DNA from: an uncultured Prevotellaceae bacterium
GTDB taxonomy: Bacteria > Bacteroidota > Bacteroidia > Bacteroidales > Muribaculaceae
Length of the DNA stretch: 64,000 nucleotides
NCBI GenBank assembly: GCA_900317325.1
Contig: ONGE01000002.1
Span: 124,001-188,000, forward strand
Direction of reading: 5' to 3'
Below the pieces are notes generated by a model. That model searched no databases. It had not been told where the DNA came from and saw only the letters and a program-made list of their open reading frames with translations. Positions 5,964 to 51,516 of this stretch are shown one piece after another (position 1 is the first letter of the stretch; each line of letters starts with the position of its first letter). A program made the position numbers and the translations under genes.

Positions 5964-7393
5964 TGAAAAAGTTTTTCACTCTCATAGCACTGGTTGCCTT
6001 CACCATCGCAAGTTATGCGCAGACAACCCCCAACCGCCTCATCGTCACCATGAAGAACGGTGACGTGACCGTTTACAACATTGCCGACGTCGACAGCCTG
6101 TCGTTTGACCTCATCGAGGGCGATGTCGTGGCCAACGCCACAGTCAACGCCATCGAGTGGGACGGTGACAACGGCAACGTGAACATGAACATCACCATGA
6201 GCGATGCCGCCCAGGGTTATCGCATCGTTATCCTGCCCGCCAGCGAGGCTGAGAACGCCGCCCAGGCTCTTGCCGCATGCGCCATCAGCGACAATCAGGG
6301 CGAGGTCAACATGGTAGTCGAGAACATGGTTCCCGGCGAGACCTACGTCATCGCCACCATCGCCTACGACAAGTACGGCATCGCTGGTGACATGGTCACC
6401 ACCACCTTTGTCGCTCCCGAGAAGTCCATCTCAATGCCCGCACTGAGCATCGCCATCCCCACCAGCTTCAACGACTGCTGGGTACAGCGCGTGATGTACA
6501 ACGGCGTGAAGGTGGCCGAGGTGTGCAAGGAATACATCAAGGATTATGACGACCAGCGCGTGGTTGTTTACCCCTGCGACGAGAACGGCTATGCTATCCT
6601 CACCAAGGGTGTTTCGGCCAGTGACGGCGGCACCGTCGTTTGGGACGAGGAGAACAACACGGTAGCTTACACCGACGGCAACAGCACTCCCCTGTCGATG
6701 GTATATCTGGTAAACGGCGAAATCGTCATCGCCGCTCCCGAAATGGCCGAGCCCACTATTGTCGAGGCCGACCTGCTCGTGGACAATCGTGGCAGCGAGG
6801 AACAGGTTTACCAAATCGTGAAGATCGGTACCCAGTACTGGATGGCCGAGAACCTGCGTGCCTCGAAGTGGGTTGACGGTTCTGCCATTCCCATGTATAA
6901 GTCCACACAGACCAGCGAATGGAATGCCAACACCACCGGTGCTTACCACGTGTATGCCGACGATGATGAATACATCCCCATCTTCGGTATGCTCTACAAC
7001 GGCTACTGCATCGTCAATGCCGACATGCTGGCTCCCGAGGGTTGGGAAGTTCCCAGCCAGAATCAGTGGGCTGCCCTGCGCACCTACGGTGGTCCTCTGG
7101 CCAACAATTTCAAGAGCGACACCGACTACTCGTGGAACATGGGCAAGGAGGGTACCAATGTGACTGGTTTCAACGTATGGGCCGCTGGCTTGTACTCACC
7201 GGCCACCGGCGATGCCGATGACGGCGCCGACGCCTGGTACTGGAGCACTACCCCCTATGAGGATCCCCTGAGCTCCATCCCCTCGTTCCAGATGATTCGT
7301 TTCAACCAGACGAGCAAGAACATGGTGCGCTACACCACTTCGGGCCACGCCTGCACCTTCGGTCACAGCGTACGCTGCATCCGCAAGAAGTAA
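5960..7393 (+). CDS. Exported FISUMP (Fibrobacter major paralogous domain) protein
   Basis: 477 residues with signal peptide MMKKFFTLIALVAFTIASYAQ. The N-terminal part contains the segment KNGDVTVYNIADVDSLSFD common to Bacteroidetes surface proteins, followed by a fibronectin-like region. The C-terminal 200 residues are a FISUMP domain: QIVKIGTQYWMAENLRASKW, then APEGWEVPSQNQWAALRTYGG, WYWSTTPYED and the closing HSVRCIRKK. It overlaps the preceding gene by four bases and is followed by a strong hairpin, so it ends this transcript. These proteins are surface-exposed or secreted; the ligand is unknown. Confidence 0.85.
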   Translation: MMKKFFTLIALVAFTIASYAQTTPNRLIVTMKNGDVTVYNIADVDSLSFDLIEGDVVANATVNAIEWDGDNGNVNMNITMSDAAQGYRIVILPASEAENAAQALAACAISDNQGEVNMVVENMVPGETYVIATIAYDKYGIAGDMVTTTFVAPEKSISMPALSIAIPTSFNDCWVQRVMYNGVKVAEVCKEYIKDYDDQRVVVYPCDENGYAILTKGVSASDGGTVVWDEENNTVAYTDGNSTPLSMVYLVNGEIVIAAPEMAEPTIVEADLLVDNRGSEEQVYQIVKIGTQYWMAENLRASKWVDGSAIPMYKSTQTSEWNANTTGAYHVYADDDEYIPIFGMLYNGYCIVNADMLAPEGWEVPSQNQWAALRTYGGPLANNFKSDTDYSWNMGKEGTNVTGFNVWAAGLYSPATGDADDGADAWYWSTTPYEDPLSSIPSFQMIRFNQTSKNMVRYTTSGHACTFGHSVRCIRKK

Positions 7394-13177: not shown

Positions 13178-14261
13178 TTGGCTCATCGCCATATTATTCC
13201 TGTCGTTGCTACACCTGGAGCCGATGACGGCTCAAGAACTGGAATGGAGCATCGACGCGAGCATGCTGCTCAATAACCGCGAGGGCGGCGAGGACAGCAC
13301 CACTCCTGACCAGACCGCGTTGTTCACACGTCTGGCTCCCGAGCTGGGCATTTCGATGCTCAACGGCGAGCATGTCCTCAAGGGCGGTGTGGTTTGGTAT
13401 CAGCCCATGATCGACAATCTCGACGGCTACAAAGTGCTGCCCACGCTCTATTACCGCTACAACAACAATAACGGTTGGCACGTGACAGCAGGTCTCATGC
13501 CGCGCTCGCTCATGGTCGAACACATGCCCCGCTACCTGTGGAGCGACTCGCTTCATTATTGCCAACCCAACATACGGGGCATCATGACCCAGTTCATCAA
13601 GCCCGACGGGTATGCCGAAATGGTTGTGGACTGGCGACAGATGCAAACCGAGCGTCAGCGCGAGGCCTTCACCTTCATGTTCAACACCGATTGGCATATC
13701 GCCGGCCCCTTGAGGCTGGGCGGGCACCTGCAATACAGCCACCTGGCAGTGACACGCCACCACGCCGATGAACAGCACGTCAACGACAACCTGATACTCA
13801 ACCCCATGGTGTGGCTCGACCTGTCACGCCACACCGCGCTCGACTCGCTCCGGCTGGCGGCTGGCGCCATCATCGACATGGAGCGTGACCGTAGCGTCGA
13901 TCGTTGGGAGTCACCCGCCGGGTTTATCGCCACGGCGACTGCCCGATGGCGATGGATTCAGCTCGACGAGACCTTCTACACCGGCCAGAAACTGATGCCG
14001 CTCTACCGCAAGTTCGGCAGCCAGCTCATCCAGGGCGATCCCTATTATCACACCAAGACCTACAGCCGCACCGACCTCATTGTCCACATCGTGAGCAACC
14101 GCTTCGTGGACTTGACCGGCAGCATCGCCTTTCACGCCACCGACAAGATGACCGGTTTCTGGCAACAGATTGCCTGCCGTTTCTATCTCGACAACGACCT
14201 GTGGAAGCGTCGTCACGACAAGGACTACCTGCGCAGCGGGCACCTCTCCCCTCTCTACTAA
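13170..14261 (+). CDS. Probable outer-membrane protein of unknown function
   Basis: 363 residues starting at [20 protein letters not shown], a signal peptide ending at TAQE. The mature part has many alternating aromatic/polar stretches ([32 protein letters not shown]), as in outer-membrane beta-strands, but I recognise no named family. The ATG lies inside the last codons of gltX (8-base overlap); upstream extensions would only be the shadow of gltX. It is followed by a short ACTAAGG-type heptamer array and then kdtA. A role in the envelope is likely from location only. Confidence 0.75.
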
Positions 14262-14285
14262 CGACTAAAAAACTAAGGACTAAAA
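14257..14285 (+). repeat. Heptamer array ACTAAGG/ACTAAAA before kdtA
   Basis: Units ACTAACG (overlapping the TAA of the previous gene), ACTAAAA, one extra A, ACTAAGG, ACTAAAA, then CG and the kdtA ATG. The spacer between the two genes is therefore all repeat. Confidence 0.85.
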
Positions 14286-14287
14286 CG

Positions 14288-15538
14288 ATGGATCCGATTT
14301 ATAACCTGGGTATCGCCACCTACCGTAATGCCGTGAAGCTTGCCGCCGTGCGTAAGCGCAAGGCCAAATTGCTGCTGCGAGGACAGCGACGCTGTTTCCG
14401 CACCTTGCAGCGCAAACTCGACCCCGCCGGGGGCTACATCTGGATTCACGCCTCGTCGCTGGGCGAGTTTGAGCAGGGCCGTCCGCTCATCGAGAAGATC
14501 AAGCGTGAGCAGCCCGACGCCCACATCCTGCTGTCGTTCTTCTCCCCGTCGGGTTACGAGGTGCGCAAGAACTTCAGCATGGTCGATACGGTGGTGTATC
14601 TCCCCTTTGACCTGCCGCGCAACGTCAAGCGTTTCCTTGACCTGGTCAAGCCGTCGATGGCCATCTTCATCAAGTATGAGTTCTGGGGCAACTACCTGCA
14701 GGCGCTCAAGCGTCGCAATGTTCCCACCTACATCATCTCGGCCATCTTCAGGCCCGGGCAGATTTTCTTCCGCCCCTGGGGTGGGATGTTCCGCAAGATG
14801 CTCAAGTGCTTCGACATGTTATTCGTGCAGAATGAGCAGTCGCGCGAGTTGCTCGCGGGCATCGGCATCGACAATGTAGTGGTGGCGGGTGACACCCGCT
14901 TTGACCGCGTGGCCGACGTGCGCGCTGCCGCCAAGGAGTTCCCGCTCGTGTCGAAGTTTGTCGAGGACTCCAAGTTCACCCTGGTCATGGGCAGCTCCTG
15001 GCCTCCCGACGAGGACATCGTCATCCCCTACTTCAACTCTCACCGCGAGATGAAACTCATCATTGCGCCCCATGAGTTTGACCGTCAGCGCCTGCACGTG
15101 CTCATGTCCAAGCTGGCACGTCCGGCCCGTTTCTACAGCGAGGCCACCCCTCGCAACCTTAAAGGCTGCGACTGCCTGATCATCGACAGTTTCGGTCTCT
15201 TGTCATCGCTGTACCGCTACGGCCAGGCCGCCTATGTGGGCGGCGGTTTCGGCGCCGGTATCCACAACATCAACGAGGCTGCCGTCTATGGCATCCCCGT
15301 CATCTTCGGCCCCAAGTGCCACAAGTTCCAGGAGGCCGCCGACCTCATCGAGCTTGACGGTGCCATGAGCATCCATGATGCCGACTCCTTCTCGGCAGCC
15401 ATGGACCCCCTGCTTGAGAACGAGCCCCTGCGTCTGCAGTGCGGCAAGAGGGCCGGTGACTATATCCAGTCACACCTGGGCGGCACGCAACTCATCTATG
15501 ACCTCATCTTCAAGGGTCAAGACCAAGATAATTCTTGA
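14288..15538 (+). CDS. kdtA: 3-deoxy-D-manno-octulosonic acid (Kdo) transferase
   Basis: 416 residues, GT30 family: adds Kdo to lipid A precursor at the cytoplasmic face of the inner membrane. Seen: the N-terminal acceptor-side motif WIHASSLGEFEQGRPLIE, IFIKYEFWGNYLQALKRR, and the C-terminal donor domain with AAYVGGGFGAGIHNINEAA and PVIFGPKCHKFQEAADLI. Start at MDPIYNLGIATYRNAV, directly after a heptamer array; the frame is open further upstream only as a shadow. This is a committed LPS step, fitting the envelope genes elsewhere in the window. Confidence 0.95.
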   Translation: MDPIYNLGIATYRNAVKLAAVRKRKAKLLLRGQRRCFRTLQRKLDPAGGYIWIHASSLGEFEQGRPLIEKIKREQPDAHILLSFFSPSGYEVRKNFSMVDTVVYLPFDLPRNVKRFLDLVKPSMAIFIKYEFWGNYLQALKRRNVPTYIISAIFRPGQIFFRPWGGMFRKMLKCFDMLFVQNEQSRELLAGIGIDNVVVAGDTRFDRVADVRAAAKEFPLVSKFVEDSKFTLVMGSSWPPDEDIVIPYFNSHREMKLIIAPHEFDRQRLHVLMSKLARPARFYSEATPRNLKGCDCLIIDSFGLLSSLYRYGQAAYVGGGFGAGIHNINEAAVYGIPVIFGPKCHKFQEAADLIELDGAMSIHDADSFSAAMDPLLENEPLRLQCGKRAGDYIQSHLGGTQLIYDLIFKGQDQDNS

Positions 15539-15591
15539 GAACTCCAAGGACGCATCAAGAGCCGCTGATATCAAAAAAAATCAGAAAAACG

Positions 15592-15622
15592 TTGAATATT
15601 AGCGGAATTTGATATACCTTTG
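15592..15622 (+). promoter_or_regulatory. Promoter of yceD-rpmF-fabH
   Basis: TTG (15592-15594) and -7 box TACCTTTG (15615-15622) with 20 bases between; the yceD ATG follows 26 bases later. Confidence 0.7.
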
Positions 15623-15648
15623 TGGCGCTTTAACGAAAATTTCAGGAG

Positions 15649-16191
15649 ATGGTAGATGCTTTGAAGTTGAAAATCAAGACGTTACCATTTGGCACTCACG
15701 CGGTTGAATGTCATCTGGACGAGTCATTTTTCAATACCGATGAGCAAATCGAAGTGCGACGTGCCGATGTTGATGTCACCCTGACGGTGACGCGCAAGAG
15801 CGAGAGCACCTTCCGCCTGGAGATCTCGTGCAGGGGCACAGTGACAACTGCCTGTGACCGTTGCCTCGAAGATCTGGATTTGCCGGTGGACGTGGATTAC
15901 CGCCTGAACGTGGAGCAAATGGGCACCGAGCTTGACGACAGCAACGACGAGCTCCTGATTGTGCCATCGGACTGGCGAGAGCTGGATGCCGCACCCCTGG
16001 TGCGCGACACCGTGCTGCTGGCCATGCCGATGACGCGCTGTCATGAGGACGATGAGTGCAACCCCGTCATGCTCGACCTGCTCGACAGTCATTGCGTCGA
16101 GGCCGTCCCCGACGACGATGACACCCAAGAGAGTGAAACAACCGGCACCGACCCCAGGTGGGAGGCGCTTAAAAAACTGAAAGAACAATAA
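15649..16191 (+). CDS. yceD: YceD/DUF177 family protein
   Basis: 180 residues. Typical DUF177 pattern: a basic start (LKLKIKTLPFGTHAVECHLD), a CxxC pair in TTACDRCLEDLDLPVDVDY, a mid segment LIVPSDWRELDAAPLVRDTV, and the closing DPRWEALKKLKEQ. The gene sits directly upstream of rpmF, as in very many bacteria; YceD is implicated in 23S rRNA maturation in plants and E. coli relatives. Own promoter; spacer to rpmF is 23 bases. Confidence 0.92.
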   Translation: MVDALKLKIKTLPFGTHAVECHLDESFFNTDEQIEVRRADVDVTLTVTRKSESTFRLEISCRGTVTTACDRCLEDLDLPVDVDYRLNVEQMGTELDDSNDELLIVPSDWRELDAAPLVRDTVLLAMPMTRCHEDDECNPVMLDLLDSHCVEAVPDDDDTQESETTGTDPRWEALKKLKEQ

Positions 16192-16214
16192 TTTTTCAAT
16201 AAAACTACAAGAAA

Positions 16215-16397
16215 ATGGCACATCCTAAAAGAAGACAGTCTAAGACTCGTACCGCTAAGCGCCGCACCCACGACGTGGCTGTGGCTCCGACCATCGCTCA
16301 GTGCTCGAACTGTGGTGCATGGCATGTTTATCACACCGTATGCCCCGAGTGCGGTTACTACCGTGGCAAGAACGTGATGGGCAAGGAGGAAGCCTAA
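16215..16397 (+). CDS. rpmF: 50S ribosomal protein L32
   Basis: 60 residues: MAHPKRRQSKTRTAKRRTH, then the zinc ribbon with CSNCGAWHVYHTVCPECGYY (two CxxC pairs) and a short tail. Length and sequence are standard for bL32. It lies between yceD and fabH in the classical fatty-acid/ribosome cluster. Confidence 0.98.
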   Translation: MAHPKRRQSKTRTAKRRTHDVAVAPTIAQCSNCGAWHVYHTVCPECGYYRGKNVMGKEEA

Positions 16398-16563
16398 ATC
16401 GCTGGCCTGCCTGACTGTGGCGAGAGCCTCGGTGAGGCGTACCACGATGAACGCTAACGATATATCCTGAATGGGCTGAATCTGCCATTAGGTGTTCATC
16501 CTCATTTGGGATATTGAATTTAAACACACCTCAAAAGAATATATAGATAAAGCTTTCTAGCTT

Positions 16564-17547
16564 ATGCTGAACGCAAAGATCACAGGCATCGCTTCGTACA
16601 TCCCCGATGACGTGCTGGACAACGAGATGCTGTCACAGATGGTGGACACCAACGACGAGTGGATTACCACCCGTGTGGGTGTGAAGGAACGTCGCATCCT
16701 CAAGAAGCCGGTCGGCTCGTCCTATATGGGCATCCAGGCCGTTAACAAGCTGCTCGAGGAGACCGGTACCGACCGCAACGACATCGACCTGCTCATCTGC
16801 CCGACGTCGAATCCCGACCATCGTTTCCCCTCGACGGCATCGATCATCGCCCATGCCACCGGCATCGAAAAAAAGGCCTATGCCTATGACATCCAGGCTG
16901 CTTGTGCTGGTTTTCTGGTGGGACTGTATGAGGCTACTGCCTTTATCCGCGCTGGTATCTACAAGAAGGTGATCGTCGTGTCGGCCGAGAAGATGTCGAG
17001 CATGGTGGACTATACCGACCGTGCCATCTGCCCGCTCTTTGGCGATGCTGCAGCTTGCATGCTGCTCGAGCCCACCGAGGAGCCCATCGGCGTGATGGAC
17101 GGCATCTTCCATGTAGATGGCTCGGGACTGGAGCACCTGGTCTATAAGGCCGGTGGCTCGGCCCTGCGCACCAGCCACGAAACCGTGGATGCCAATTTCC
17201 ACTGTGTCTATCAGGAAGGCCGCGCTGTTTACCGCCATGCCGTCATCGACATGCTCACCTCGAGCCGCGACGTGATGAAGCGCAACAATCTCACCAACGA
17301 GAACATCCAGTGGTTTGTGCCTCACCAGGCCAACCTGCGCATCATCGAGGCCGTCGGCCAGCGTCTGGGCATCGACGAGAGCAAGGTGCTTGTCAACATC
17401 GAGCACCGCGGCAACACCAGTGCTGCCAGCATCCCCTTGTGTCTTGACGAGAACAAGCACCGCCTCAAGAAAGGCGACAAGATGGTCCTCACCGCCTTTG
17501 GCGCCGGATTCACCTGGGGAGCCCTGTACCTCATCTGGTCGCTGTAA
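16564..17547 (+). CDS. fabH: Beta-ketoacyl-ACP synthase III
   Basis: 327 residues. Condenses acetyl-CoA with malonyl-ACP to start fatty acid synthesis. The catalytic triad is visible: Cys in IQAACAGFLVGLY (near residue 114), His in WFVPHQANLRIIEAV (near 253) and Asn in EHRGNTSAASIPLCL (near 283). Substrate-entry and dimer motifs NDEWITTRVGVKERR and GDAAACMLLEP are standard. The 166-base spacer after rpmF holds no recognisable signal. Confidence 0.97.
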   Translation: MLNAKITGIASYIPDDVLDNEMLSQMVDTNDEWITTRVGVKERRILKKPVGSSYMGIQAVNKLLEETGTDRNDIDLLICPTSNPDHRFPSTASIIAHATGIEKKAYAYDIQAACAGFLVGLYEATAFIRAGIYKKVIVVSAEKMSSMVDYTDRAICPLFGDAAACMLLEPTEEPIGVMDGIFHVDGSGLEHLVYKAGGSALRTSHETVDANFHCVYQEGRAVYRHAVIDMLTSSRDVMKRNNLTNENIQWFVPHQANLRIIEAVGQRLGIDESKVLVNIEHRGNTSAASIPLCLDENKHRLKKGDKMVLTAFGAGFTWGALYLIWSL

Positions 17548-17567
17548 TAAGACCGGACACATCACCT

Positions 17568-17614
17568 GAAGCATCACTACTCACAAGCGCAATACTCACG
17601 AGTAGCGATGCTTC
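17568..17614 (+). terminator. Stem-loop after fabH
   Basis: Arms GAAGCATC-A-CTACTC and GAGTAG-C-GATGCTTC (14 pairs, one mismatch) enclose a 17-base loop. There is no T-run, and era follows with only a repeat array in between, so it may be a processing or partial termination site. Confidence 0.45.
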
Positions 17615-17632
17615 TTGAATAAATAACCACCA

Positions 17633-17674
17633 ACTAGAAACTAAGGACTAAGGACTAAAAACTAAGGACTAAAA
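17633..17674 (+). repeat. Six perfect heptamers directly abutting the era ATG
   Basis: Units in order: ACTAGAA, ACTAAGG, ACTAAGG, ACTAAAA, ACTAAGG, ACTAAAA. The last base of the array is next to the A of the era ATG at 17675. Same family as the arrays before kdtA, der and WbqC. Confidence 0.92.
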
Positions 17675-18556
17675 ATGCATCGAGCAGGATTCGTCAACAT
17701 CGTGGGAAACCCCAACGTGGGAAAATCGACACTGAGCAACCGCCTGGTGGGTGAGCGCCTGTCCATCATCACCAGCAAGGCACAGACCACACGCCACCGC
17801 ATCATGGGCATCGTCAATGGTGAGGATTACCAGATCGTGTTCAGCGACACGCCCGGCGTGCTCAAGCCCAAATTCAGGCTGCAGCAGAGCATGCTCGAGT
17901 ACTCGACCGGCGCCCTCGTCGATGCCGACGTGCTGCTCTATGTCACCGACGTCATCGAGTCGCCCACCAAGAATCAGGACTTCCTCGACCGCGTGGCCAG
18001 GGAGAACATCCCCATCCTGTTGATCATCAACAAGATCGACCTGCTCAAGGGCAACGATGACCTGATGCGCATCATCGACCAGTGGAAGCAGCTCCTGCCC
18101 AACGCCGAGGTGTTCCCCACCAGCGCGCTCGAGAACTTCAATGTCGACAACATCATGAAGCGCATCGTCGAGTTGCTGCCTGAGAGCCCACCCTACTTCG
18201 GCAAGGATGCCCTCACCGACCGCAGCAGCCGCTTCTTTGTCACCGAAATCGTGAGGGAGAAAATCCTCATGACCTACGACAAGGAGGTGCCCTACGCCAC
18301 CCAGGTCATCGTCGAGAAATTTGACGAGAGCGACACCGCCATTCACATCATGGCAGTCATCTATGTCGAGCGCGATACCCAGAAGGGGATCATCATCGGC
18401 CACCAGGGCCGCAAACTCAAGCACGTGGGCATCGAGGCCCGCAAGGACATCGAGAAATTCTTTGAGAAGAAAGTGTTCCTCGAACTCTATGTCAAGGTCG
18501 AGAAGGACTGGCGCAACCAGGAGAGCAAGCTGCGCGCCTTCGGTTACATCGAGTGA
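17675..18556 (+). CDS. era: GTPase Era
   Basis: 293 residues. G domain: [16 protein letters not shown] (P-loop), switch I with TRHRIMGI, FSDTPGVLKPK (G3), IINKIDLLKG (G4), FPTSALENFNVD (G5). C-terminal KH domain: IIGHQGRKLKHVGIEARKDI with the usual closing KDWRNQESKLRAFGY. Era binds the 3' end of 16S rRNA and helps 30S assembly. It sits between two heptamer arrays and directly before der. Confidence 0.97.
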   Translation: MHRAGFVNIVGNPNVGKSTLSNRLVGERLSIITSKAQTTRHRIMGIVNGEDYQIVFSDTPGVLKPKFRLQQSMLEYSTGALVDADVLLYVTDVIESPTKNQDFLDRVARENIPILLIINKIDLLKGNDDLMRIIDQWKQLLPNAEVFPTSALENFNVDNIMKRIVELLPESPPYFGKDALTDRSSRFFVTEIVREKILMTYDKEVPYATQVIVEKFDESDTAIHIMAVIYVERDTQKGIIIGHQGRKLKHVGIEARKDIEKFFEKKVFLELYVKVEKDWRNQESKLRAFGYIE

Positions 18557-18558
18557 AA

Positions 18559-18593
18559 ACTAAAAACTAAGGACTAACAACTAAGGACTAAAA
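18559..18593 (+). repeat. Five heptamers between era and der
   Basis: ACTAAAA, ACTAAGG, ACTAACA, ACTAAGG, ACTAAAA, then GAGAT and the der ATG at 18599. The array begins two bases after the era stop. Confidence 0.92.
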
Positions 18594-18598
18594 GAGAT

Positions 18599-19912
18599 AT
18601 GGGACGATTAGTAGCTATCGTGGGTAGGCCCAACGTGGGCAAGTCAACACTGTTCAACCGCCTGACGCAGACGCGCGCCGCCATCGTCAACGACACCAGC
18701 GGCACCACGCGCGACCGCCAGTACGGCAAGATGGAATGGAACGGCATGGAAATGTCGGTCGTCGACACCGGTGGATGGGTGGTCAACAGCGAGGACATCT
18801 TTGAGGAAGAAATCAACAAGCAGGTGCAGCTGGCCATCGAGGAGGCCGACGTCATCCTCTTTGTCGTGGACATCAAGAACGGCATCACCGACCTTGACGA
18901 CCATGTGGCCGACATCCTGCGCCGCACCTCCAAGCCCGTCATCATCGTCGCCAACAAGGACGACAACAACCAGAGCATGTATGCCGAGGCCGAGTTCTAT
19001 TCGCTGGGACTGGGGCAGCCCTTCTCCATCTCGGCTGTCAACGGCAACGGCACAGGCGACCTCCTTGACGAGGTGGTCAAGCAGATGCCCGACAAGGCCG
19101 AGGAGGACGTCGACGAGAATCTGCCCCGATTCGCCATCGTGGGCAGGCCCAACGCCGGCAAGTCGTCGCTCGTCAACTCCCTCATGGACGAGCAGCGCAA
19201 CATCGTCACCGACATCGCCGGCACCACGCGCGACAGCATCTACTCCCGCTACAACAAGTTCGGCTTCGACTTCTACCTCGTGGACACCGCCGGCATCCGC
19301 AAGAAGAACAAGGTCAACGAGGATATCGAGTACTACTCGGTGCTGCGCTCCATCCGCGCCATCGAGAACAGCGACGTGTGCATCCTGCTCATCGACGCCA
19401 CCCGCGGCATCGAGTCCCAGGACGTCAACATCTTCTCCATTATCCAGAAGAACCGCAAGGGACTCGTCGTGCTCGTCAACAAGTGGGACATCGCACTCGA
19501 CAAGTCACAGCAAGCCTTCGACCATTTCGAGGCCACCATCCGCGAGCGCTTCGCCCCCTTCACCGACTTCCCCATCATCTTCGGGTCGGCCATCACCAAG
19601 CAGCGCATCCACAAGGTGCTCCAGACGGCCATCGAGGTCAACGAGAACCGCCGCATGACCATCCCCACGTCAACCCTCAACAACGTGCTCCAGGCCGACA
19701 TTCAGGCCTTCCCGCCCCCCGCTGTCAAGGGCAAGTATGTGAAAATCAAGTACATCACCATGCTCAAGGGCGCCCAAGTGCCCACGTTCATCTTCTTCTG
19801 CAACCTGCCCCAGTGGATCAGGGATCCCTACAAGCGCTACCTCGAGAACAAGATACGCGAGCACTGGAACCTGCACGGCACCCCCATCAACCTCTTCTTC
19901 CGCGAGAAGTGA
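18599..19912 (+). CDS. der: Ribosome assembly GTPase Der (EngA)
   Basis: 437 residues with two G domains in tandem: first [14 protein letters not shown] (near residue 8), VVDTGGWV and ANKDD; second [14 protein letters not shown] (near 181), [13 protein letters not shown] and VNKWD. A C-terminal KH-like domain follows ([20 protein letters not shown]). Der acts in late 50S assembly. It is followed by a 16-bp inverted repeat that probably ends the transcript. Confidence 0.97.
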
Positions 19913-22548: not shown

Positions 22549-23631
22549 ATGATTGAAACACCGTTTGAAGACAGGTGGCAAGCCCGCCTGCTAGCCGAGG
22601 AGAAGGCCGTGAAAGAATTCTCCAACATCAAAGAGAAGTATGTTATCAACGGCAACGTCGATTATCCCGAACCCGAGTACCTCATCCGCATCGGTGATGT
22701 GCCCACCCTGCCCAAGGGCAACCTGGTGGCCGTGAGTGCCAAGTGGAAAAACGGCAAGACTTTCTTCTGCGACATCCTGAGCGCCATTTTCCTGGGATCC
22801 GACTTTTTTCCCAACTGCGAGAGCCTGTTCAAGCACGGCAAGGTGAGGTTCATCGACACCGAGCAGGCGATGAACGACTCGGCCCGCATCCTCAAGACCA
22901 TTTGGGACATGACCCCCGAGGACAGGCATGACGACATCGAGGTCTCCTGTCTGCGCGGAGCCAATATCGACGCCAACGACTCGAGTAATGAGATCTCACG
23001 CTATGAATTCGTAAGCCGGTCCATCGAGATTGAGCACCCCGACCTGGTCATCGTGGACGGCATCGCCGACCTCATCTACAACTACAACGACGTGATTGAA
23101 AGCCAGATCATGGTCAACCAACTGGCAGCTCTCGCCAACAAGCACAACTGCTGCATCGTCGTGGTCATGCACCAGAACAAGGGCAACCATGACAGGATGA
23201 TGAAGGGACACATCGGCACCATGCTCTACCAGAAGTGCAGCGACGTGTTCCAGGTCGAGAAGCACGGCGAGATTTTTATCGTCTCACATCCCGTGTCGCG
23301 TCACCGCCAAAGCAGCGGACTGGTTTTCAAACTCGACGAGAACGCCATCCCTAAGGACGGCTCTGCCGACCGACAGCGACAGATGCAAATCGAGAAGCAA
23401 CAGAGCGAGCAGCAGATGAGGGTAATCCTGGCCGACGTCATCCCACAGGACGGCACACCCATCAGGCGCAGCGACATCGTGGAGCAACTCACCGAGAAGC
23501 ATCCCTTCCAGCGAACACGTTGCTACGAGCTCATCAAGCAAGCCGTCGCAGCGGGATGGCTCGAAGAGGTGGACAGGTCGAGGGTAAGGCTCAAGGCCGA
23601 AGCCGACGTTTCGTCCGTTCGTCCGCTATAA
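22549..23631 (+). CDS. RecA/RepA-like ATPase of mobile-element type
   Basis: 360 residues of the RecA-like AAA_25 group found in plasmid and island replication or phage modules. Walker A is atypical: AVSAKWKNGKTFFCDIL lacks the first Gly of GxxxxGKT (near residue 66). Walker B is HPDLVIVDGIADLI, followed by CCIVVVMHQNKGNHD, a sensor-like segment. The C-terminal 80 residues look like a winged helix (RRSDIVEQLTEKHPFQRTR). The last codons (SSVRPL) are encoded by a tetramer repeat, as if the 3' end had been replaced. No helicase loader, primase or integrase lies next to it. Confidence 0.7.
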   Translation: MIETPFEDRWQARLLAEEKAVKEFSNIKEKYVINGNVDYPEPEYLIRIGDVPTLPKGNLVAVSAKWKNGKTFFCDILSAIFLGSDFFPNCESLFKHGKVRFIDTEQAMNDSARILKTIWDMTPEDRHDDIEVSCLRGANIDANDSSNEISRYEFVSRSIEIEHPDLVIVDGIADLIYNYNDVIESQIMVNQLAALANKHNCCIVVVMHQNKGNHDRMMKGHIGTMLYQKCSDVFQVEKHGEIFIVSHPVSRHRQSSGLVFKLDENAIPKDGSADRQRQMQIEKQQSEQQMRVILADVIPQDGTPIRRSDIVEQLTEKHPFQRTRCYELIKQAVAAGWLEEVDRSRVRLKAEADVSSVRPL

Positions 23632-23830
23632 TATATAAATTGAACGAACGAATGAACGGATGAAATTGTGTCATCGATAGTTTTGACACAACAATTTCAA
23701 TCCTCTCATTAAACTATACAATACCTACCCTTTCATCCGTTCATTCGTTCGTTCGTATGTACGTTATATTAATTTTTTAATCCGCATGTACGTCCGTACG
23801 TCTGTACGAACGAACGGACGGACGTACAGC
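23607..23830. repeat. Tetramer repeat block with nested palindromes
   Basis: Arrays of CGTT/CGTC/CGTA and CGAA/CGGA tetramers at 23607-23626 (inside the end of the ATPase gene), 23642-23665, 23734-23765 and 23783-23826. The arms at 23642-23665 and 23731-23754 are exact 24-base inverted repeats. Between them a second inverted repeat (23662-23673 / 23684-23698, three-base bulge) can pair. A further 10-bp pair GTACGTCCGT / ACGGACGTAC is at 23788-23797 and 23818-23827. Confidence 0.9.
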
Positions 23831-30734: not shown

Positions 30735-30758
30735 CGAACGAACGGACGAACGAACGAG
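30735..30758 (+). repeat. Tetramer array, right edge of the accessory island
   Basis: CGAA CGAA CGGA CGAA CGAA CGAG, 15 bases after the hsdR stop. It is the reverse-complement type of the array at 21099. Confidence 0.8.
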
Positions 30759-31362: not shown

Positions 31363-32007
31363 TCAGCCCCGGGTCATCGCCATCAGCGTGAAGATTCCCT
31401 CACGGCCCATGTTCATCATCAAGTCCAGGATACTCAGGTCGGCCTGGAAGCCGTCACGGCCTGTCCACATCTGATAATAAGCCACGTTGCTGATGGGCAA
31501 CGCGTCGGGCTTTTTCATGCCAATGCGACCGCGCATGTCCTCATCGGCCGCTGCCACGTCCCCACCCTGCTCCAGATAGCGGGTCATCAGGGGCAGATCC
31601 ATGAAATCGACGATGACCTCGTGCATCTGGCGGTTAAAGTCGTGCAGATAGCGCTGCGAGCCGTGAATCACGCGCGACAGGTCATCGGCCACATAGTCGA
31701 AATAAGGTGAACGGCCATAGGCCGAATACAGCGCCCCCCAGTGCAAGCGGCGCCAGTCGCCATGCTCCGAGATGAGCACGTCACGCAAGGGGGTCATCAT
31801 GTTGTTGGTAGCACCCACGAGGGGGACGGTGAGCGTCTGCAGGCCGTTAGGGCCGTCAACGCGGTAACGGTGATGGCTGTGACGCAAGGGCAGGCGCCGC
31901 TCATCAAGGTCAACCAGCAGCGTGCCGGCCTTGAGGGCAGCGGCATAGCACCGCACACTGGCGGCACACATGCTGCCCATCACCACTGTTGTTGCAGATG
32001 TAGTCAT
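31363..32007 (-). CDS. WbqC family protein
   Basis: 214 residues. WbqC-like pattern: LTVPLVGATNNMMTPLRDV, SEHGDWRRLHWGALYSAYGR, SPYFDYVADDL and the closing SILDLMMNMGREG. The family is found in polysaccharide clusters and, in Bacteroidetes, next to signal peptidase genes; the reaction is unknown. It follows lepB on the same strand across a spacer made of heptamer repeats. Confidence 0.85.
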   Translation of the reverse strand: MTTSATTVVMGSMCAASVRCYAAALKAGTLLVDLDERRLPLRHSHHRYRVDGPNGLQTLTVPLVGATNNMMTPLRDVLISEHGDWRRLHWGALYSAYGRSPYFDYVADDLSRVIHGSQRYLHDFNRQMHEVIVDFMDLPLMTRYLEQGGDVAAADEDMRGRIGMKKPDALPISNVAYYQMWTGRDGFQADLSILDLMMNMGREGIFTLMAMTRG

Positions 32008-32014
32008 TGGGTTT

Positions 32015-32196
32015 TTAGTCCCTAGTCCCTAGTCCCTAGTCCTTAGTCCCTAGTCCTTAGTCCTTAGTCCCTAGTCCCTAGTCCCTAGTCCTTAGTCCCT
32101 AGTCCTTAGTCCCTAGTCCTTAGTCCTTAGTCCTTAGTCCTTAGTCCCTAGTCCTTAGTCCCTAGTCCCTAGTCCTTAGTCCCTAGTCCTTAGTTG
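32015..32196 (-). repeat. 26-unit heptamer array between lepB and WbqC
   Basis: On the plus strand the units read YTAGTCC: 25 copies identical except that the first base is T or C, plus a last unit TTAGTTG. On the coding strand they are GGACTAA/GGACTAG, the same family as the ACTAAGG arrays before kdtA, era and der. The array ends seven bases before the WbqC ATG. No unit has an indel in 182 bases. Confidence 0.95.
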
Positions 32197-32219
32197 TCGT
32201 TAGTTTGTTAGCGGATGCC

Positions 32220-32240
32220 AATTCCTAATTCCTAATTCCT
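32220..32240 (-). repeat. Second heptamer, AATTCCT x3, at the lepB stop
   Basis: Three exact copies of AATTCCT (coding strand AGGAATT), the last sharing one base with the lepB TGA. Confidence 0.85.
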
Positions 32241-46676: not shown

Positions 46677-49634
46677 ATGAGAAAAGAAAGGATTTTACTC
46701 ATGAGCGCATTGATTGCAGCGTCGGCCATGTCGGCGCAGGCTCGCATCAACTACCCTGACACGCGTCGCGTGGACACGGTTGACACTTACTTCGGCACCC
46801 AGGTCGCTGACCCCTACCGCTGGCTCGAGGACGACCGCAGCGCCGAGACCGAGGCCTGGGTGGCCGCCCAGAACAAGGTCACCCAGAACTACCTGGCCAA
46901 AATCCCCTTCCGCAAGGACGTGAAGAAGCGCATCACCGAACTCGCCAACTACGAGAAGATGGGTGCGCCCTTCAAGATCAAGGACAAATTCTACTTCTTC
47001 AAGAACAACGGTCTGCAGAACCAGAGCGTGCTCTACGAGTATGACAAGAACGGCAACCACAAGATGGTGCTCGACCCCAACACGCTGAGCGAGGACGGCA
47101 CCGTGGCCCTGCAGCAGCTCAACTTCTCCAACGACGGCCGCTACCTGGCCTATGTCATCACCCGCAGCGGCAGTGACTGGAACGAGATTTTCGTGAAGGA
47201 CCTCAAGGAGGACCGCGTGCTCGACGACCACATCGTGTGGGCCAAGTTCACCGATGCCCAGTGGCTGGGAGACGGCTTCTTCTACAGCGGCTATGACGCC
47301 CCCGAGGATGCCAAGTCGTCCAAGAACGAGTTCCAGAAGGTGTTTTACCACAAGCTGGGCACTCCCCAGAGCGAGGACTACATCGAGTATCAGGACAAGA
47401 GCGAACCCTTGCATTTCCACCAGGTGAGCGTCAGTGACGACGAGCGTTACGTCATCCTGTGGAAGAGCGACGCCGAGGGCAACGACATCTACGTCAAGGA
47501 CCTCAAGGACCGCAACCCCCACTACGTGCAGCTCATCGGCGGCATGAAGTATGAGCGCGGCATCATCGGCATCGATAATGGCAAGATCTATGTCACGACC
47601 AACGAGAATGCCCCCAAGGGCAAGATTATCACCTATGACGCCGAGACCTTGTCTCCCGCCAGCTGCGCCGAGTTCATCCCCGAGCAGGAATCAGTGCTGA
47701 CGGGCGCCACGATGGCCGACCACAAGTTCATCCTCACCTATGACAAGGACGCTTCGAGCCACCCCTACCTGTATGACCAGCAGGGCCGTCTCATCCGCGA
47801 GATTCAGTTGCCCACCTACGGCTCGGTAGGCTTCAGCTGCAAGAAGAACGCCAAGGAGGTCTTCTACAGCTTTGCCAGCTACACCTTCCCCGGCGCCATC
47901 TACAAGTATGACCTCGAGACGGGCAAGAGCGAACTCTTCTTCCAGCCCAAGGTCAACCTCAAGAGCGAGGACTATGTGACCGAGCAGGTGTTCTTCAACA
48001 GCAAGGACGGTGCCCGCATCCCCATGTTCCTGGTTTACAAGAAGGGCCTCAAGCGTGACGGCCAACGCCCCACCTTCCTCTACGGTTACGGCGGTTTCAA
48101 CGTGAGCCTCAACCCCGCTTTCACCTACACCCGCACCCTGTTCGCCATGATGGACTGCGGTGGCATCTGCGCCTACGTCAACCTGCGCGGTGGTGGCGAG
48201 TATGGCGAGGAATGGCACCAGGCCGGCACCAAGATGAACAAGCAGAACGTGTTCGACGACTTCATCGCTGCCGCCGAGTGGCTCATCGACAACAACTACA
48301 CCAACCCCAAGAAGCTGGCTTGCAACGGTGCCAGCAACGGCGGTCTGCTCGTCGGCGCTGTGGTTAACCAGCGTCCCGACCTGTTTGCAGCAGCCGTCCC
48401 CCAGGTGGGTGTGATGGACATGCTGCGTTACCACGAGTTCACCATCGGCTGGAACTGGGCCCCCGACTACGGCCGCAGCGACGACAGCCCCGAGATGTTC
48501 CAGTACCTGCGCGGCTATTCGCCCCTGCACAACATCAAGAACGACGGCACCCGTTACCCCGCCATCATGGTGACCACCGGTGACCACGACGACCGCGTGG
48601 TGCCCGCCCACAGCTTCAAGTATGCCGCCGAGCTGCAGCACTGCAACACCGGCGACCAACCCAAGCTCATCCGCATCGACAGCAAGGCAGGTCACGGCCA
48701 CAGCAAGCCCATCAGCAAGATCATCGACGAGTACACCGACATCCAGGCCTTCATCATGTACAACCTGGGCGTCAAGTACAAACAACACGCGTTATTTACC
48801 AAGAGAAAACGGAGGCAGCGGTCAACCCGCAACCTCCGTTTTTCCGTTTTTTCTTTTTTTCCGTTATATCCGCTCTCTCCGTTTTTTCCGTCACTTGAAC
48901 AGCCGTCCCACGACGGGCAACTTGGCCAGCATGGGCTTCAGGTGCTCCTTGCGGTAGATGACTCCCACAAACAGCAACAGCAGCACGGTGCGGAAGGCCA
49001 ACCTGAGCCACGTGTTCTCCACGGGCAGCATCATACCGGCAAACAGGATGCCGGCCACGACGGTATACAGGGCGATGTCGCGCAGCGGATAGTTCACGGG
49101 GAAATACTTCTGCCCGATGAAATAAGACAAGAGCATCGACACGCTGTAGGCGATAAGTCCGGCCCAGGCACATGCCATGTAGCTGTAGTGCGGGATGAGC
49201 AGCAGGTTGATGATGAAGAGCACCACGGCCCCGATACCCGAGAAATAGGCGCCCCAAATGGTGCGGTCGGTCAACTTGTACCAGAACGAGAGGTTGAAGA
49301 ACACGCCGAACACAATCTCGGCAGCCATCACGATGGGCACCACGCGCAAGCCGCTCCAGTAGCTCTCGCCAATCAGATACTTGAGCAGGTCGAGATAGGC
49401 CATCACCACAAGGAAGGCCAGCAGCGTGAAGATGATGTAGTATTTCATCGTCTGGGCATAGACCTCCTTGCTGTCCTTGTCCTTCACCTTGCTGAAGACG
49501 AATGGCTCGTAGGCAAAACGGAATGCCTGGGTAATCATCATCATGATCATGGCAATCTTGATGCACGCGCCGTAGATGCCCAGCTCGCTCATCGCGTTGG
49601 TGCCGGGGTAAACCTTGGGGAACATGATCTGTGA
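46677..49634 (+). CDS. Prolyl oligopeptidase (S9A) whose frame runs past its natural end
   Basis: Residues 1-702 are a complete exported prolyl oligopeptidase: signal MRKERILLMSALIAASAMSA, beta-propeller (about 70-420) beginning near DPYRWLEDD, and the hydrolase domain with the nucleophile Ser in CNGASNGGLLVGAVVNQRPD, Asp in TTGDHDDRVVPAHSF and His in SKAGHGHSKPISK. The usual end is at VKYK (48782). Here CAA stands at 48783-48785 and the frame continues 283 codons to 49634, entirely antisense to the flippase gene. A terminator hairpin lies at 48806-48843. The extension is low-complexity His/Gln-rich shadow sequence. Confidence 0.85.
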   Translation: MRKERILLMSALIAASAMSAQARINYPDTRRVDTVDTYFGTQVADPYRWLEDDRSAETEAWVAAQNKVTQNYLAKIPFRKDVKKRITELANYEKMGAPFKIKDKFYFFKNNGLQNQSVLYEYDKNGNHKMVLDPNTLSEDGTVALQQLNFSNDGRYLAYVITRSGSDWNEIFVKDLKEDRVLDDHIVWAKFTDAQWLGDGFFYSGYDAPEDAKSSKNEFQKVFYHKLGTPQSEDYIEYQDKSEPLHFHQVSVSDDERYVILWKSDAEGNDIYVKDLKDRNPHYVQLIGGMKYERGIIGIDNGKIYVTTNENAPKGKIITYDAETLSPASCAEFIPEQESVLTGATMADHKFILTYDKDASSHPYLYDQQGRLIREIQLPTYGSVGFSCKKNAKEVFYSFASYTFPGAIYKYDLETGKSELFFQPKVNLKSEDYVTEQVFFNSKDGARIPMFLVYKKGLKRDGQRPTFLYGYGGFNVSLNPAFTYTRTLFAMMDCGGICAYVNLRGGGEYGEEWHQAGTKMNKQNVFDDFIAAAEWLIDNNYTNPKKLACNGASNGGLLVGAVVNQRPDLFAAAVPQVGVMDMLRYHEFTIGWNWAPDYGRSDDSPEMFQYLRGYSPLHNIKNDGTRYPAIMVTTGDHDDRVVPAHSFKYAAELQHCNTGDQPKLIRIDSKAGHGHSKPISKIIDEYTDIQAFIMYNLGVKYKQHALFTKRKRRQRSTRNLRFSVFSFFPLYPLSPFFPSLEQPSHDGQLGQHGLQVLLAVDDSHKQQQQHGAEGQPEPRVLHGQHHTGKQDAGHDGIQGDVAQRIVHGEILLPDEIRQEHRHAVGDKSGPGTCHVAVVRDEQQVDDEEHHGPDTREIGAPNGAVGQLVPEREVEEHAEHNLGSHHDGHHAQAAPVALANQILEQVEIGHHHKEGQQREDDVVFHRLGIDLLAVLVLHLAEDEWLVGKTECLGNHHHDHGNLDARAVDAQLAHRVGAGVNLGEHDL
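48806..48843. terminator. Bidirectional hairpin between prolyl oligopeptidase and the flippase gene
   Basis: AAAACGGAGG / CCTCCGTTTT, a perfect 10-bp stem with T-runs on both strands. It lies before any stop codon of the plus-strand gene. Confidence 0.8.
48836..48896. repeat. 9-mer array CCGTTTTTT at the flippase stop
   Basis: Seven units of eight or nine bases: CCGTTTTT, CCGTTTTTT, CTTTTTTT, CCGTTATAT, CCGCTCTCT, CCGTTTTTT, CCGTCACTT. It runs from the terminator stem to the flippase stop. Confidence 0.75.
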
Positions 49635-50378
49635 CAGGCTCTGGTTGAGCTGACCGGCAATTCCCATGACAAGGATGGGCCAAGCGTAGGACCACATCTG
49701 GCGGCACATCTTGGTGTCAAACCCGTGATTGATGCCCCTGAGCTCCTTGTTCAGGAACACCAGGTTGAACATCGAGCAGAACAGGTTGATGTAGAACACC
49801 CACACCACGTCGTAGTGGAAAGTCTCGCCGTAGATGCCGAACGGGTTGAGGTGAAGCATCGGCAACCCGAAGAAATAAATCAGGTTGAGCAAGATGTTCA
49901 GGCCGATGTTGGCAATCTTCAACGTGGCGAATTTGATGGGTTTGTGCTCGCAGCGCAAGTAGGCGAACGCAATGGCCGTGAAGGCATCCAGGGCCACTGT
50001 GATATACATCACCGCCACATATTCCGGATGGTCGCCATAGCCCAGCAAAGCGGCTATCTGCTTGCAGAAGAGCACCACAATCACCGATGTCACAAGGCCC
50101 ACCGTGCCCACCATCCTGAGCACCGTGGAATATACCTTCTCACGGTCCATGCCCTCCTTGTTCATGAACCTGAAGAACGTCGTCTCCATGCCGAAGGTCA
50201 GCACCATGATCAGAATCGCCACATAGGCATAAACGTTGGTGATGATGCCGTATTCGCCTCCTGTCGAGGCAAATTTCATGGTCTGTATCGGCACGAGCAG
50301 GTAGTTGACAAAACGGGCCACGATGCTGCTCAGGCCATAGATAGCGGTGTCTTTTGCCAGTGATTTAAGATTAGCCAT
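48891..50378 (-). CDS. Polysaccharide/lipid flippase (Wzx/MATE-like)
   Basis: 495 residues, about 14 membrane helices. N-terminus SLAKDTAIYGLSSIVARFVN and the early segment FASTGGEYGIITNVYAYVAI are typical of lipopolysaccharide-type flippases, with charged TM residues and the helix KYYIIFTLLAFLVVMAYLDL. Moves lipid-linked sugar precursors to the periplasmic face; substrate unknown. It follows ruvB on the same strand, separated by four AGTTAGG-type heptamers. Confidence 0.88.
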   Translation of the reverse strand: MANLKSLAKDTAIYGLSSIVARFVNYLLVPIQTMKFASTGGEYGIITNVYAYVAILIMVLTFGMETTFFRFMNKEGMDREKVYSTVLRMVGTVGLVTSVIVVLFCKQIAALLGYGDHPEYVAVMYITVALDAFTAIAFAYLRCEHKPIKFATLKIANIGLNILLNLIYFFGLPMLHLNPFGIYGETFHYDVVWVFYINLFCSMFNLVFLNKELRGINHGFDTKMCRQMWSYAWPILVMGIAGQLNQSLSQIMFPKVYPGTNAMSELGIYGACIKIAMIMMMITQAFRFAYEPFVFSKVKDKDSKEVYAQTMKYYIIFTLLAFLVVMAYLDLLKYLIGESYWSGLRVVPIVMAAEIVFGVFFNLSFWYKLTDRTIWGAYFSGIGAVVLFIINLLLIPHYSYMACAWAGLIAYSVSMLLSYFIGQKYFPVNYPLRDIALYTVVAGILFAGMMLPVENTWLRLAFRTVLLLLFVGVIYRKEHLKPMLAKLPVVGRLFK

Positions 50379-50380
50379 TT

Positions 50381-50408
50381 CTAACTCCTAACTTCTAACT
50401 CCTAACTA
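50381..50408 (-). repeat. Heptamer array AGTTAGG between ruvB and the flippase gene
   Basis: On the plus strand CTAACTC, CTAACTT, CTAACTC, CTAACTA; on the coding strand AGTTAGG-type units. The array overlaps the ruvB stop and ends two bases before the flippase ATG. Confidence 0.88.
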
Positions 50409-51489: not shown

Positions 51490-51516
51490 CTAAAGACCTT
51501 AAAGTCCTTAAAGTGT
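51490..51516 (+). repeat. 9-mer array CTAAAGACC
   Basis: CTAAAGACC, TTAAAGTCC, TTAAAGTGT in register, directly before the 25-bp hairpin. Confidence 0.65.

Follow-up and report, generated by a model that had tools for sequence, protein, structure and literature searches.

The window analysed here is a stretch of 64,000 nucleotides (positions 124,001 to 188,000 of contig ONGE01000002.1, assembly GCA_900317325.1) from an uncultured bacterium of the Muribaculaceae, in which tandem arrays of seven-base units, or heptamers, occupy spacers between housekeeping genes (Table 1). These arrays belong to a genome-wide class of intergenic period-7 arrays with many different units that extends across the genus, here called Sodaliphilus. 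Four of them, with 4, 6, 5 and 26 units of the ACTAARR family, had been noticed in a sequence-only reading before kdtA (waaA), era, der and wbqC; re-reading the sequence bears them out, down to the contact of the era array with its ATG, and the gene names agree with Pfam matches. Pfam also supports the names FabH and S26 signal peptidase in the window, and a Pfam search with the gene preceding waaA gave no match. That reading described the spacers as almost entirely heptamers, which is right for waaA and der (35 of 42 nt) but not for the fabH-era spacer, where the array takes 42 of 127 nt; before wbqC it takes 182 of 232. It also missed the two arrays with other units, at 32220-32240 and 50379-50407. 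The stop codon of the gene upstream of waaA (14259-14261) lies inside unit 1 of the array before waaA, and the TAG stop of ruvB (50406-50408) adjoins the array of the ruvB-flippase spacer in register.

Table 1. Heptamer arrays, adjoining genes and a nearby inverted repeat in the 64-kb window.
Feature	Position	Strand	Context or Pfam match
Heptamer array, 4 ACTAARR-like units, one with an extra A	14257..14285	+	before waaA (kdtA)
Heptamer array, 6 exact units	17633..17674	+	final unit abuts era ATG at 17675
Heptamer array, 5 units	18559..18593	+	ends 5 nt before der
Heptamer array, 26 ACTARRR units	32013..32194	-	before wbqC
Second heptamer array, (AGGAATT)3, TTAG core	32220..32240	-	at signal peptidase gene stop, in the spacer of the wbqC array
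AGTTAGR-type heptamer array (AGTTAGGAGTTAGAA...), 4 units	50379..50407	-	ruvB stop to flippase start, fills spacer
Hairpin-like inverted repeat	17568..17614	+	between fabH and era array
waaA/kdtA, Kdo transferase	14288..15538	+	PF04413
era GTPase	17675..18556	+	PF01926, PF07650
der GTPase	18599..19912	+	PF01926 (two stretches), PF14714
WbqC-like gene	31363..32007	-	PF08889

Chance does not produce the window arrays, since ACTAARR doublets with one mismatch allowed occur 31 times in the window and not once in 100 shuffles of it. A genome-wide scan for the motif, as the sequence-only reading had suggested, likewise found it far above chance (354 doublets, 224 forward and 130 reverse, vs 37 for the pattern written backwards). 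An Rfam search of the window returned one tRNA only and no family overlapping the arrays. The right arm of the inverted repeat in front of the era array recurs upstream of era in many relatives.

Arrays were counted in parts of six species, namely the window's own, G042, G009, G032, G025 and G058, with 1.97 Mb in total. From the own genome, the window's contig (C17) and contigs C29 and C30 were taken whole, together with eight more stretches of C7, C8, C16, C26, C27 and C32; C29, C30 and these stretches were chosen for their listed arrays. The other five species are represented by long contigs chosen from match lists, in runs that are long and not always complete. Arrays in which one base exceeded 75% were excluded before the distribution, orientation and stop analyses, L037 was trimmed to 4 kb against double counting with the window, and L051-L060 and L221-L232 were left out. 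Genes were called with a simple codon-score script, and some starts, such as that of wbqC, are wrong. The genus name is inferred from Era matches: the best 80 of 245 relatives include gut and rumen metagenome-assembled genomes (MAGs) labelled Muribaculaceae, Bacteroidales, Prevotellaceae or Porphyromonadaceae, with one Candidatus Sodaliphilus, and a goat MAG contig (JAFQZK010000015) matches at 100%.

In these samples, the arrays have the properties of short tandemly repeated repetitive (STRR) sequences, reportedly described by Mazel in 1990: tandem 7-bp units beyond chance, a preference for period 7, dispersal, and a mainly intergenic location. Intergenic period-7 arrays numbered 58, 42, 31, 20, 20 and 11 in the six species, and period-9 arrays, in the same order, 26, 10, 2, 1, 4 and 2; among other periods, just two counts exceed three, namely 13 for period 8 in G042 and 4 for period 11 in G009. 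The second-ranking period is thus 9 in the own genome and 8 in G042. Arrays avoid coding DNA almost completely (182 in 338 kb of intergenic DNA vs 3 in 1,637 kb of coding DNA, a 294-fold difference in density). Of the spacers of at least 20 bp, 153/811 co-directional, 21/140 convergent and 9/146 divergent ones carry an array, so that convergent and co-directional spacers are about equally rich (P 0.34). Counted as arrays within 30 nt of a gene border, the figures are 65/811 for co-directional starts, 100/811 for co-directional stops, 16/280 for convergent stops and 3/292 for divergent starts; start-proximal arrays are thus about eightfold rarer per divergent than per co-directional start (P 3e-6). 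Arrays are therefore avoided within genes and between divergent genes, and have no tie to start codons. The sequence-only reading had taken an equal frequency in convergent spacers and in coding sequence as grounds for abandoning a role in RNA, and half of that pattern is what we find.

Across genomes, ACTAARR triplets with one mismatch allowed occur in 48 of 101 (45/61 in the genus, 3/40 outside it), AACTGAN arrays in 31 of 71 (29/43 in the genus), and ACTTAAC-type arrays in 19 of 71, all 19 within the genus. All three unit searches covered 43 genus members, and eight of these were positive in none. In the sampled parts of three of the eight, G012 (144.5 kb), G038 (100 kb) and G004 (29 kb), no period-7 or period-9 array passed the threshold used; for comparison, the own sample holds its 58 intergenic period-7 arrays in 791 kb. 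Within the order as a whole, a search for four consecutive ACTRA units was positive for 69 of 295 genomes, which represent 59 of 184 genera, and a backwards control pattern was positive, by hand count, for 69 of 295 as well. Since control and real pattern are equally frequent, it is the period that is common across the order and not an ACT core, and ACT was rejected as a universal core on this ground and on the reversed orientation seen, in few cases, in G096.

Other repeats were also observed. Period-9 arrays, TCTAGANNN and CCTTAAGGT types among them, lie at 51491-51514 and 48835-48891 of the window and at 12374-12424 of L043. An open reading frame at 46677-49634, which we take from its sequence to be prolyl-oligopeptidase-like, continues through a period-9 array and has an antisense overlap of about 744 nt with the convergent flippase gene (48891-50378). 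The window further holds a cluster of period-8 and period-4 arrays (GAATGAAC, TTCATTCG, CGAA) at 23610-23808 and 30735-30757. In G025, a block of about 76 bp with GTTTAGA-like heptamers, GGCATCCGC and a CTCGCTGCGCTCGCA module is present in three copies (L204, about 6570-6780).

The orientation of the arrays follows a rule. In co-directional spacers, units of ACT type (read on the coding strand) lie nearer the start in 48 arrays and nearer the stop in 13, and units of AGT type lie nearer the stop in 48 and nearer the start in none (Fisher P 3e-19, six species). Nine further typed arrays are within 5 nt of equidistance or fill their spacer. Neither type applies to 70 arrays, of which 45 are near a stop, 19 near a start and 6 undecided. 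In convergent and divergent spacers arrays are few but show the same tendency, with 5 ACT and 2 AGT at starts and 2 ACT and 7 AGT at stops (P 0.13). Base composition was rejected as the source of this rule because the bias of array-masked spacers is far weaker (ACT:AGT 401:359 behind stops and 628:348 before starts). Outside the genus, G346 (co-directional: AGT 8 near the stop and 1 near the start, ACT 3 near the start and 1 near the stop) and G202 (ACT 3 near the start, 1 near the stop) fit the rule, and the left and right arrays of G346 are strongly complementary; G096, from another family, shows the reverse in few cases (ACT 3 near stops and 1 near a start, AGT 3 near starts and none near stops). 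The rule can be expressed for DNA alone: the left end of a spacer carries a unit X and the right end its reverse complement, with X set by the lineage. The sequence-only reading had found the motif on the coding strand in all four of its arrays and took this to suggest a role in RNA and not in DNA. The sense-strand placement stands next to start codons and fails for the sampled genome at large, and the suggestion is not supported by the arrays nearer stops, most of which have the opposite sense.

A separate motif, GGCATCCG(CC) or its complement, was seen between left and right arrays in several species (window 32212-32219, L206 at about 17537, L187 at about 195, L194 at about 5546). The own sample has 13 intergenic copies of it, 8 of them close to an array, and 29 more in coding DNA; elsewhere it resembles one arm of a terminator-like hairpin.

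What is new here is an excess of stop codons on both strands. The class YTAR (CTAA, TTAG, TTAA and CTAG), which is its own reverse complement, spells TAA or TAG on either strand, and it occurs in 55 of 82 distinct species-units where 14.6 are expected. Other patterns show no such excess: RTAY occurs in none of the 82 (14.2 expected), YATR in 2 (13.8 expected) and TGA in 9 (10.8 expected). As a null for whole arrays we permuted columns within arrays, which preserves period and composition. Of 162 co-directional arrays, 130 have a stop in each of the three sense frames, where the null predicts 83.5, and 113 have one in each antisense frame, where it predicts 52.5; when each species and unit is counted once, the numbers are 77/96 (47.9 expected) and 65/96 (32.4 expected). 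A column shuffle across units gives a smaller excess in an unchanged direction, both for sense stops (ACT units 0.855 vs 0.776, AGT units 0.938 vs 0.815) and for antisense stops (ACT units 0.780 vs 0.762, AGT units 0.719 vs 0.620). Spacers with arrays contain all-frame stops in 57 of 107 cases (16.3 expected from shuffles), and array-free spacers show little excess (51/337, 39.9 expected). At the era loci of relatives, the triplet after AC in runs of ACT units (n=369) is TAA in 91 cases, TGA in 80, TTA in 65 and TAG in 57; TAT (16), TCA (16) and TGG (3) are rarer, and others fewer still. Units that close one strand alone close the sense strand in 31 cases and the antisense strand in 9 (P 0.0007). 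This preference is 14:4 near stops (P 0.03) and 13:5 near starts (P 0.10, not significant alone); stop-free arrays near starts could have been absorbed into called genes, which would bias the start side, and the stop side has no such bias. Stop excess in the stretches of G346, G096 and G202 is biased, because these outgroup stretches were selected for ACTRA matches. In period-9 arrays, CTAG occurs in 8 of 36 (1.3 expected).

Array sequence turns over quickly between species. Median gene identity between the own genome and G025 is 94.5%, and of 50 orthologous co-directional spacers 35 are array-free in both, 8 have an array in both, 6 in the own genome only and 1 in G025 only; by eye this last spacer looks alike in both, which makes it a threshold effect. 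Copy number between sister species was a comparison that the sequence-only reading had called for, and both number and type of units differ. The era array measures 33 bp in the own genome and 104 bp in G025, and the der array 35 and 112 bp, with differences of whole units, and the ruvB-flippase spacer has a different heptamer in each. Within one species, units at different loci are alike. The set comprised 64 era loci and the window; both spacers were obtained for 55, and 29 of these have at least two ACT units in both; here the likeness between the era and der units of a species is 0.26 vs 0.11 when permuted (0 of 5000 permutations as high), and that of the same spacer between species is lower (0.15 and 0.14). 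Some species depart from this; L086, for instance, has ACTAGAA-type units before era and ACTGAAA-type units before der. Such likeness reflects either concerted evolution or a bias shared across the genome. Loss of mismatch repair was rejected as a cause, as MutS_I is found in 43 of 46 genomes, the own included. Besides the full-length MutS, a second MutS_I match was observed at G000:C34:17893-18174 and in G001, G006, G007, G010, G015-G018 and G025; these second matches fall mostly in short open frames and in part of the genus only.

We tentatively favour, as a possible account, that the arrays are heptanucleotide satellites of gene borders, grown by slippage, of the same broad class as STRR and long simple sequence repeats (LSSRs), the TAACTGA repeats of Beggiatoaceae and the GGGAATC repeats of Xanthomonas, and filtered for all-frame stops. 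Arrays would gain and lose whole units, most likely through replication slippage, and a favoured unit would spread or homogenise within the genome of one species. They may survive where insertion is harmless, that is, behind stops and before promoter-less starts but not in coding DNA; purging would account for the depletion observed in coding and promoter DNA. In these Bacteroidales, a second filter would leave most units with YTAR and hence with a stop on both strands. As 7 is 1 modulo 3, three units place a stop in every frame, and this closure should withstand the gain or loss of units so long as three stay. An array, if functional at all, may then be a self-renewing all-frame translation stop between neighbours rather than a ribosome-binding site.

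Several observations weigh against this account. Cells do not need arrays, given that about one in five co-directional spacers has one and that most others lack all-frame stops. The absence of TGA enrichment is odd if any stop sufficed. Among 188 co-directional arrays, 12, ten of which come from G042, leave a frame open on each strand, and 9 more are closed in all frames on the antisense strand only. Period-9 arrays, in which all-frame closure is impossible, are nevertheless mildly enriched in YTAR (15/36 vs 7.7 expected), and the Xanthomonas heptamer GGGAATC contains, by its sequence, no stop. The stop filter explains neither the length of seven bases nor the orientation rule. Slippage is itself an inference, in a genome with MutS. 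Finally, species and units share descent, so z-scores overstate, and MAG assemblies may miscount units.

The arrays could instead be neutral satellites only, produced in any DNA by slippage that favours seven nucleotides and merely cleared by selection from coding DNA and promoters, with the YTAR excess stemming from seeds, such as existing TAG and TAA stop codons, and from common descent. The avoidance of coding DNA and divergent spacers and the labile copy number and unit fit this explanation. So does the more frequent use of TAG as the stop codon of genes that precede an array spacer (42/153 vs 77/648 for others, Fisher P 6e-6), as if the stop codon had been drawn into the array. It predicts neither the 31:9 preference for sense stops nor that different loci of a species resemble each other in their units nor the orientation rule, and we consider it somewhat unlikely. 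Alternatively, a dispersal or copying activity at the level of the genome, such as a Y1/RAYT-type transposase, template switching at hairpins or another trans factor, may lay oriented arrays at gene borders, each species' unit being the one favoured by its machinery. The on/off state within one genus, the units alike within species, and the pairing of X with its reverse complement inside spacers, strong in G346, are what such an activity would leave; a study of Xanthomonas reports the same rule, two genomes having 70 and 75 close convergent pairs (PMC4692102). We think it unlikely, as none of the candidates is diagnostic and each was rejected as the trans factor: the own genome has no RVT_1 match, within the genus Y1_Tnp matches 34 of 35 members with arrays and 6 of 8 without (Fisher P 0.08), and 63 of 71 genomes, the own among them, have IMS-family polymerases. 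Integron attC sites were considered for GTTAGGC/GCCTAAC look-alikes, on what we take to be the attC motif and orientation. A further, distinctly unlikely proposal is an activity devoted to this task and variable between species, which would recognise gene borders and write oriented arrays there with a unit that carries the two-strand stop; it would be at work in most Sodaliphilus species and silent or lost in a few.

The view of the sequence-only reading, in which the arrays are RNA elements of translation initiation (a weak Shine-Dalgarno sequence or the site of an RNA-binding protein), has the sense orientation of ACT-type units before starts, 48 to 0 against AGT-type, in its favour. In 52 start-proximal arrays, the final seven bases are rich in A and poor in G (A 0.53, G 0.08, vs 0.37 and 0.16 in array-free spacers), 14 of 52 array spacers have AGGA close to the start vs 25 of 762 array-free ones, and TAACTGA repeats elsewhere have been interpreted likewise (PMC4679880). 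A fixed initiation or Shine-Dalgarno role is not supported, because the last unit takes no preferred register relative to the start codon (n=62, chi-square P 0.45 vs uniform) and convergent spacers are about as rich in arrays as co-directional ones. Stops have more arrays behind them than starts have before them, divergent starts are avoided, and the era and der arrays change in sequence and number between sister species; Bacteroidetes, moreover, are described in part of the literature as lacking Shine-Dalgarno sequences. All this makes an initiation element highly unlikely. Pairing of the left and right arrays of a spacer into an RNA or DNA hairpin (a terminator, stabiliser or cruciform) is at first sight suggested by their complementarity, which averages -15.2 kcal/mol vs -5.8 in composition shuffles (lower in 31 of 39 pairs) and vs -9.9 for the left array against the reverse complement of the right (24 of 39 lower, P 0.04), and which is strong in G346 (-26.9 kcal/mol, 7 pairs). 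True partners nevertheless pair no better than partners swapped within the species (-15.2 vs -15.1, lower in 17 of 39), a comparison with low power where units are uniform, as in G346. We rejected the two-array hairpin as a general cause on this result; many spacers have a single array, none of the window arrays has an Rfam match, and we consider such a structure very improbable.

The class has relatives in other phyla. In Rehm et al. 2015 (PMC4692102), intergenic tandem heptamers, GGGAATC in Xanthomonas and GGGGA(C/T)T in Nostoc/Anabaena, lie on the coding strand near stops and on the non-coding strand near starts, some overlap stop codons, convergent pairs occur, few lie between divergent genes, and lengths vary greatly between relatives. 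The AGT-type unit of Sodaliphilus is placed in the same way, and given this prior description the orientation rule, published for other heptamers in Xanthomonas and Anabaena, is not claimed as new. Unlike the units here, which are many and mostly carry a two-strand stop, those repeats are described there as G-rich and as forming quadruplexes in vitro, and are stop-free by sequence. Stops are consequently not a general cause of heptamer arrays, and the stop filter cannot be their root cause. G-tracts of three or more, from which quadruplexes could form, are by sequence lacking in units of this study such as ACTAAGG, AACTGAC and ACTTAAC; ACTAGGG has one. The same paper cites a Helicobacter pylori heptamer, GTGATTA, which is a rotation of the AGTGATT found in this study.

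In MacGregor 2015 (PMC4679880), TAACTGA direct repeats with stops in all three forward frames and 7-nt indels between strains are described from Beggiatoaceae, cyanobacteria and five Bacteroidetes, including Paludibacter propionicigenes. Such heptamers had thus already been reported in the phylum, where the sequence-only reading knew of no description for these genes in Bacteroidales; our literature search, which left most subscription papers outside its reach, found no prior Bacteroidales account beyond it. ACTGATA, a rotation of TAACTGA, was found here in 9 species or loci counted, and the sense orientation before start codons holds for one of our two sets of arrays. There, one heptamer is favoured and related ones are rare in that genome; in our arrays, species and loci differ in their unit, and behind stops there is another set of opposite orientation. 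TAACTGA is not favoured in G000, where AACTGAN triplets have 3 matches and ACTAARR triplets 204; AACTGAN triplets have 234 in G039 and 364 in G009. From STRR and LSSRs our arrays differ in unit sequences and phylum. As cited in PMC4679880 and PMC4692102, Mrazek 2007 found heptanucleotides to be the commonest class of long units, a preference known since then and still unexplained.

Overall, the array system is rich and comparative, but its function is unproven and its class has been described in other phyla. A core with a stop on both strands constrains the units in a concrete way that can be checked, and an orientation rule shared with two other phyla suggests a common cause. Were a dedicated border-recognising activity real, the orientation found also in Xanthomonas and Anabaena would speak for a widespread, so far undescribed process behind the preference of bacterial satellites for seven bases. 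With dozens of sister species, sampled parts that are array-rich in some and array-free in others, and a fast turnover of units, the genus Sodaliphilus makes the heptamer question testable by gene content and mutation patterns.

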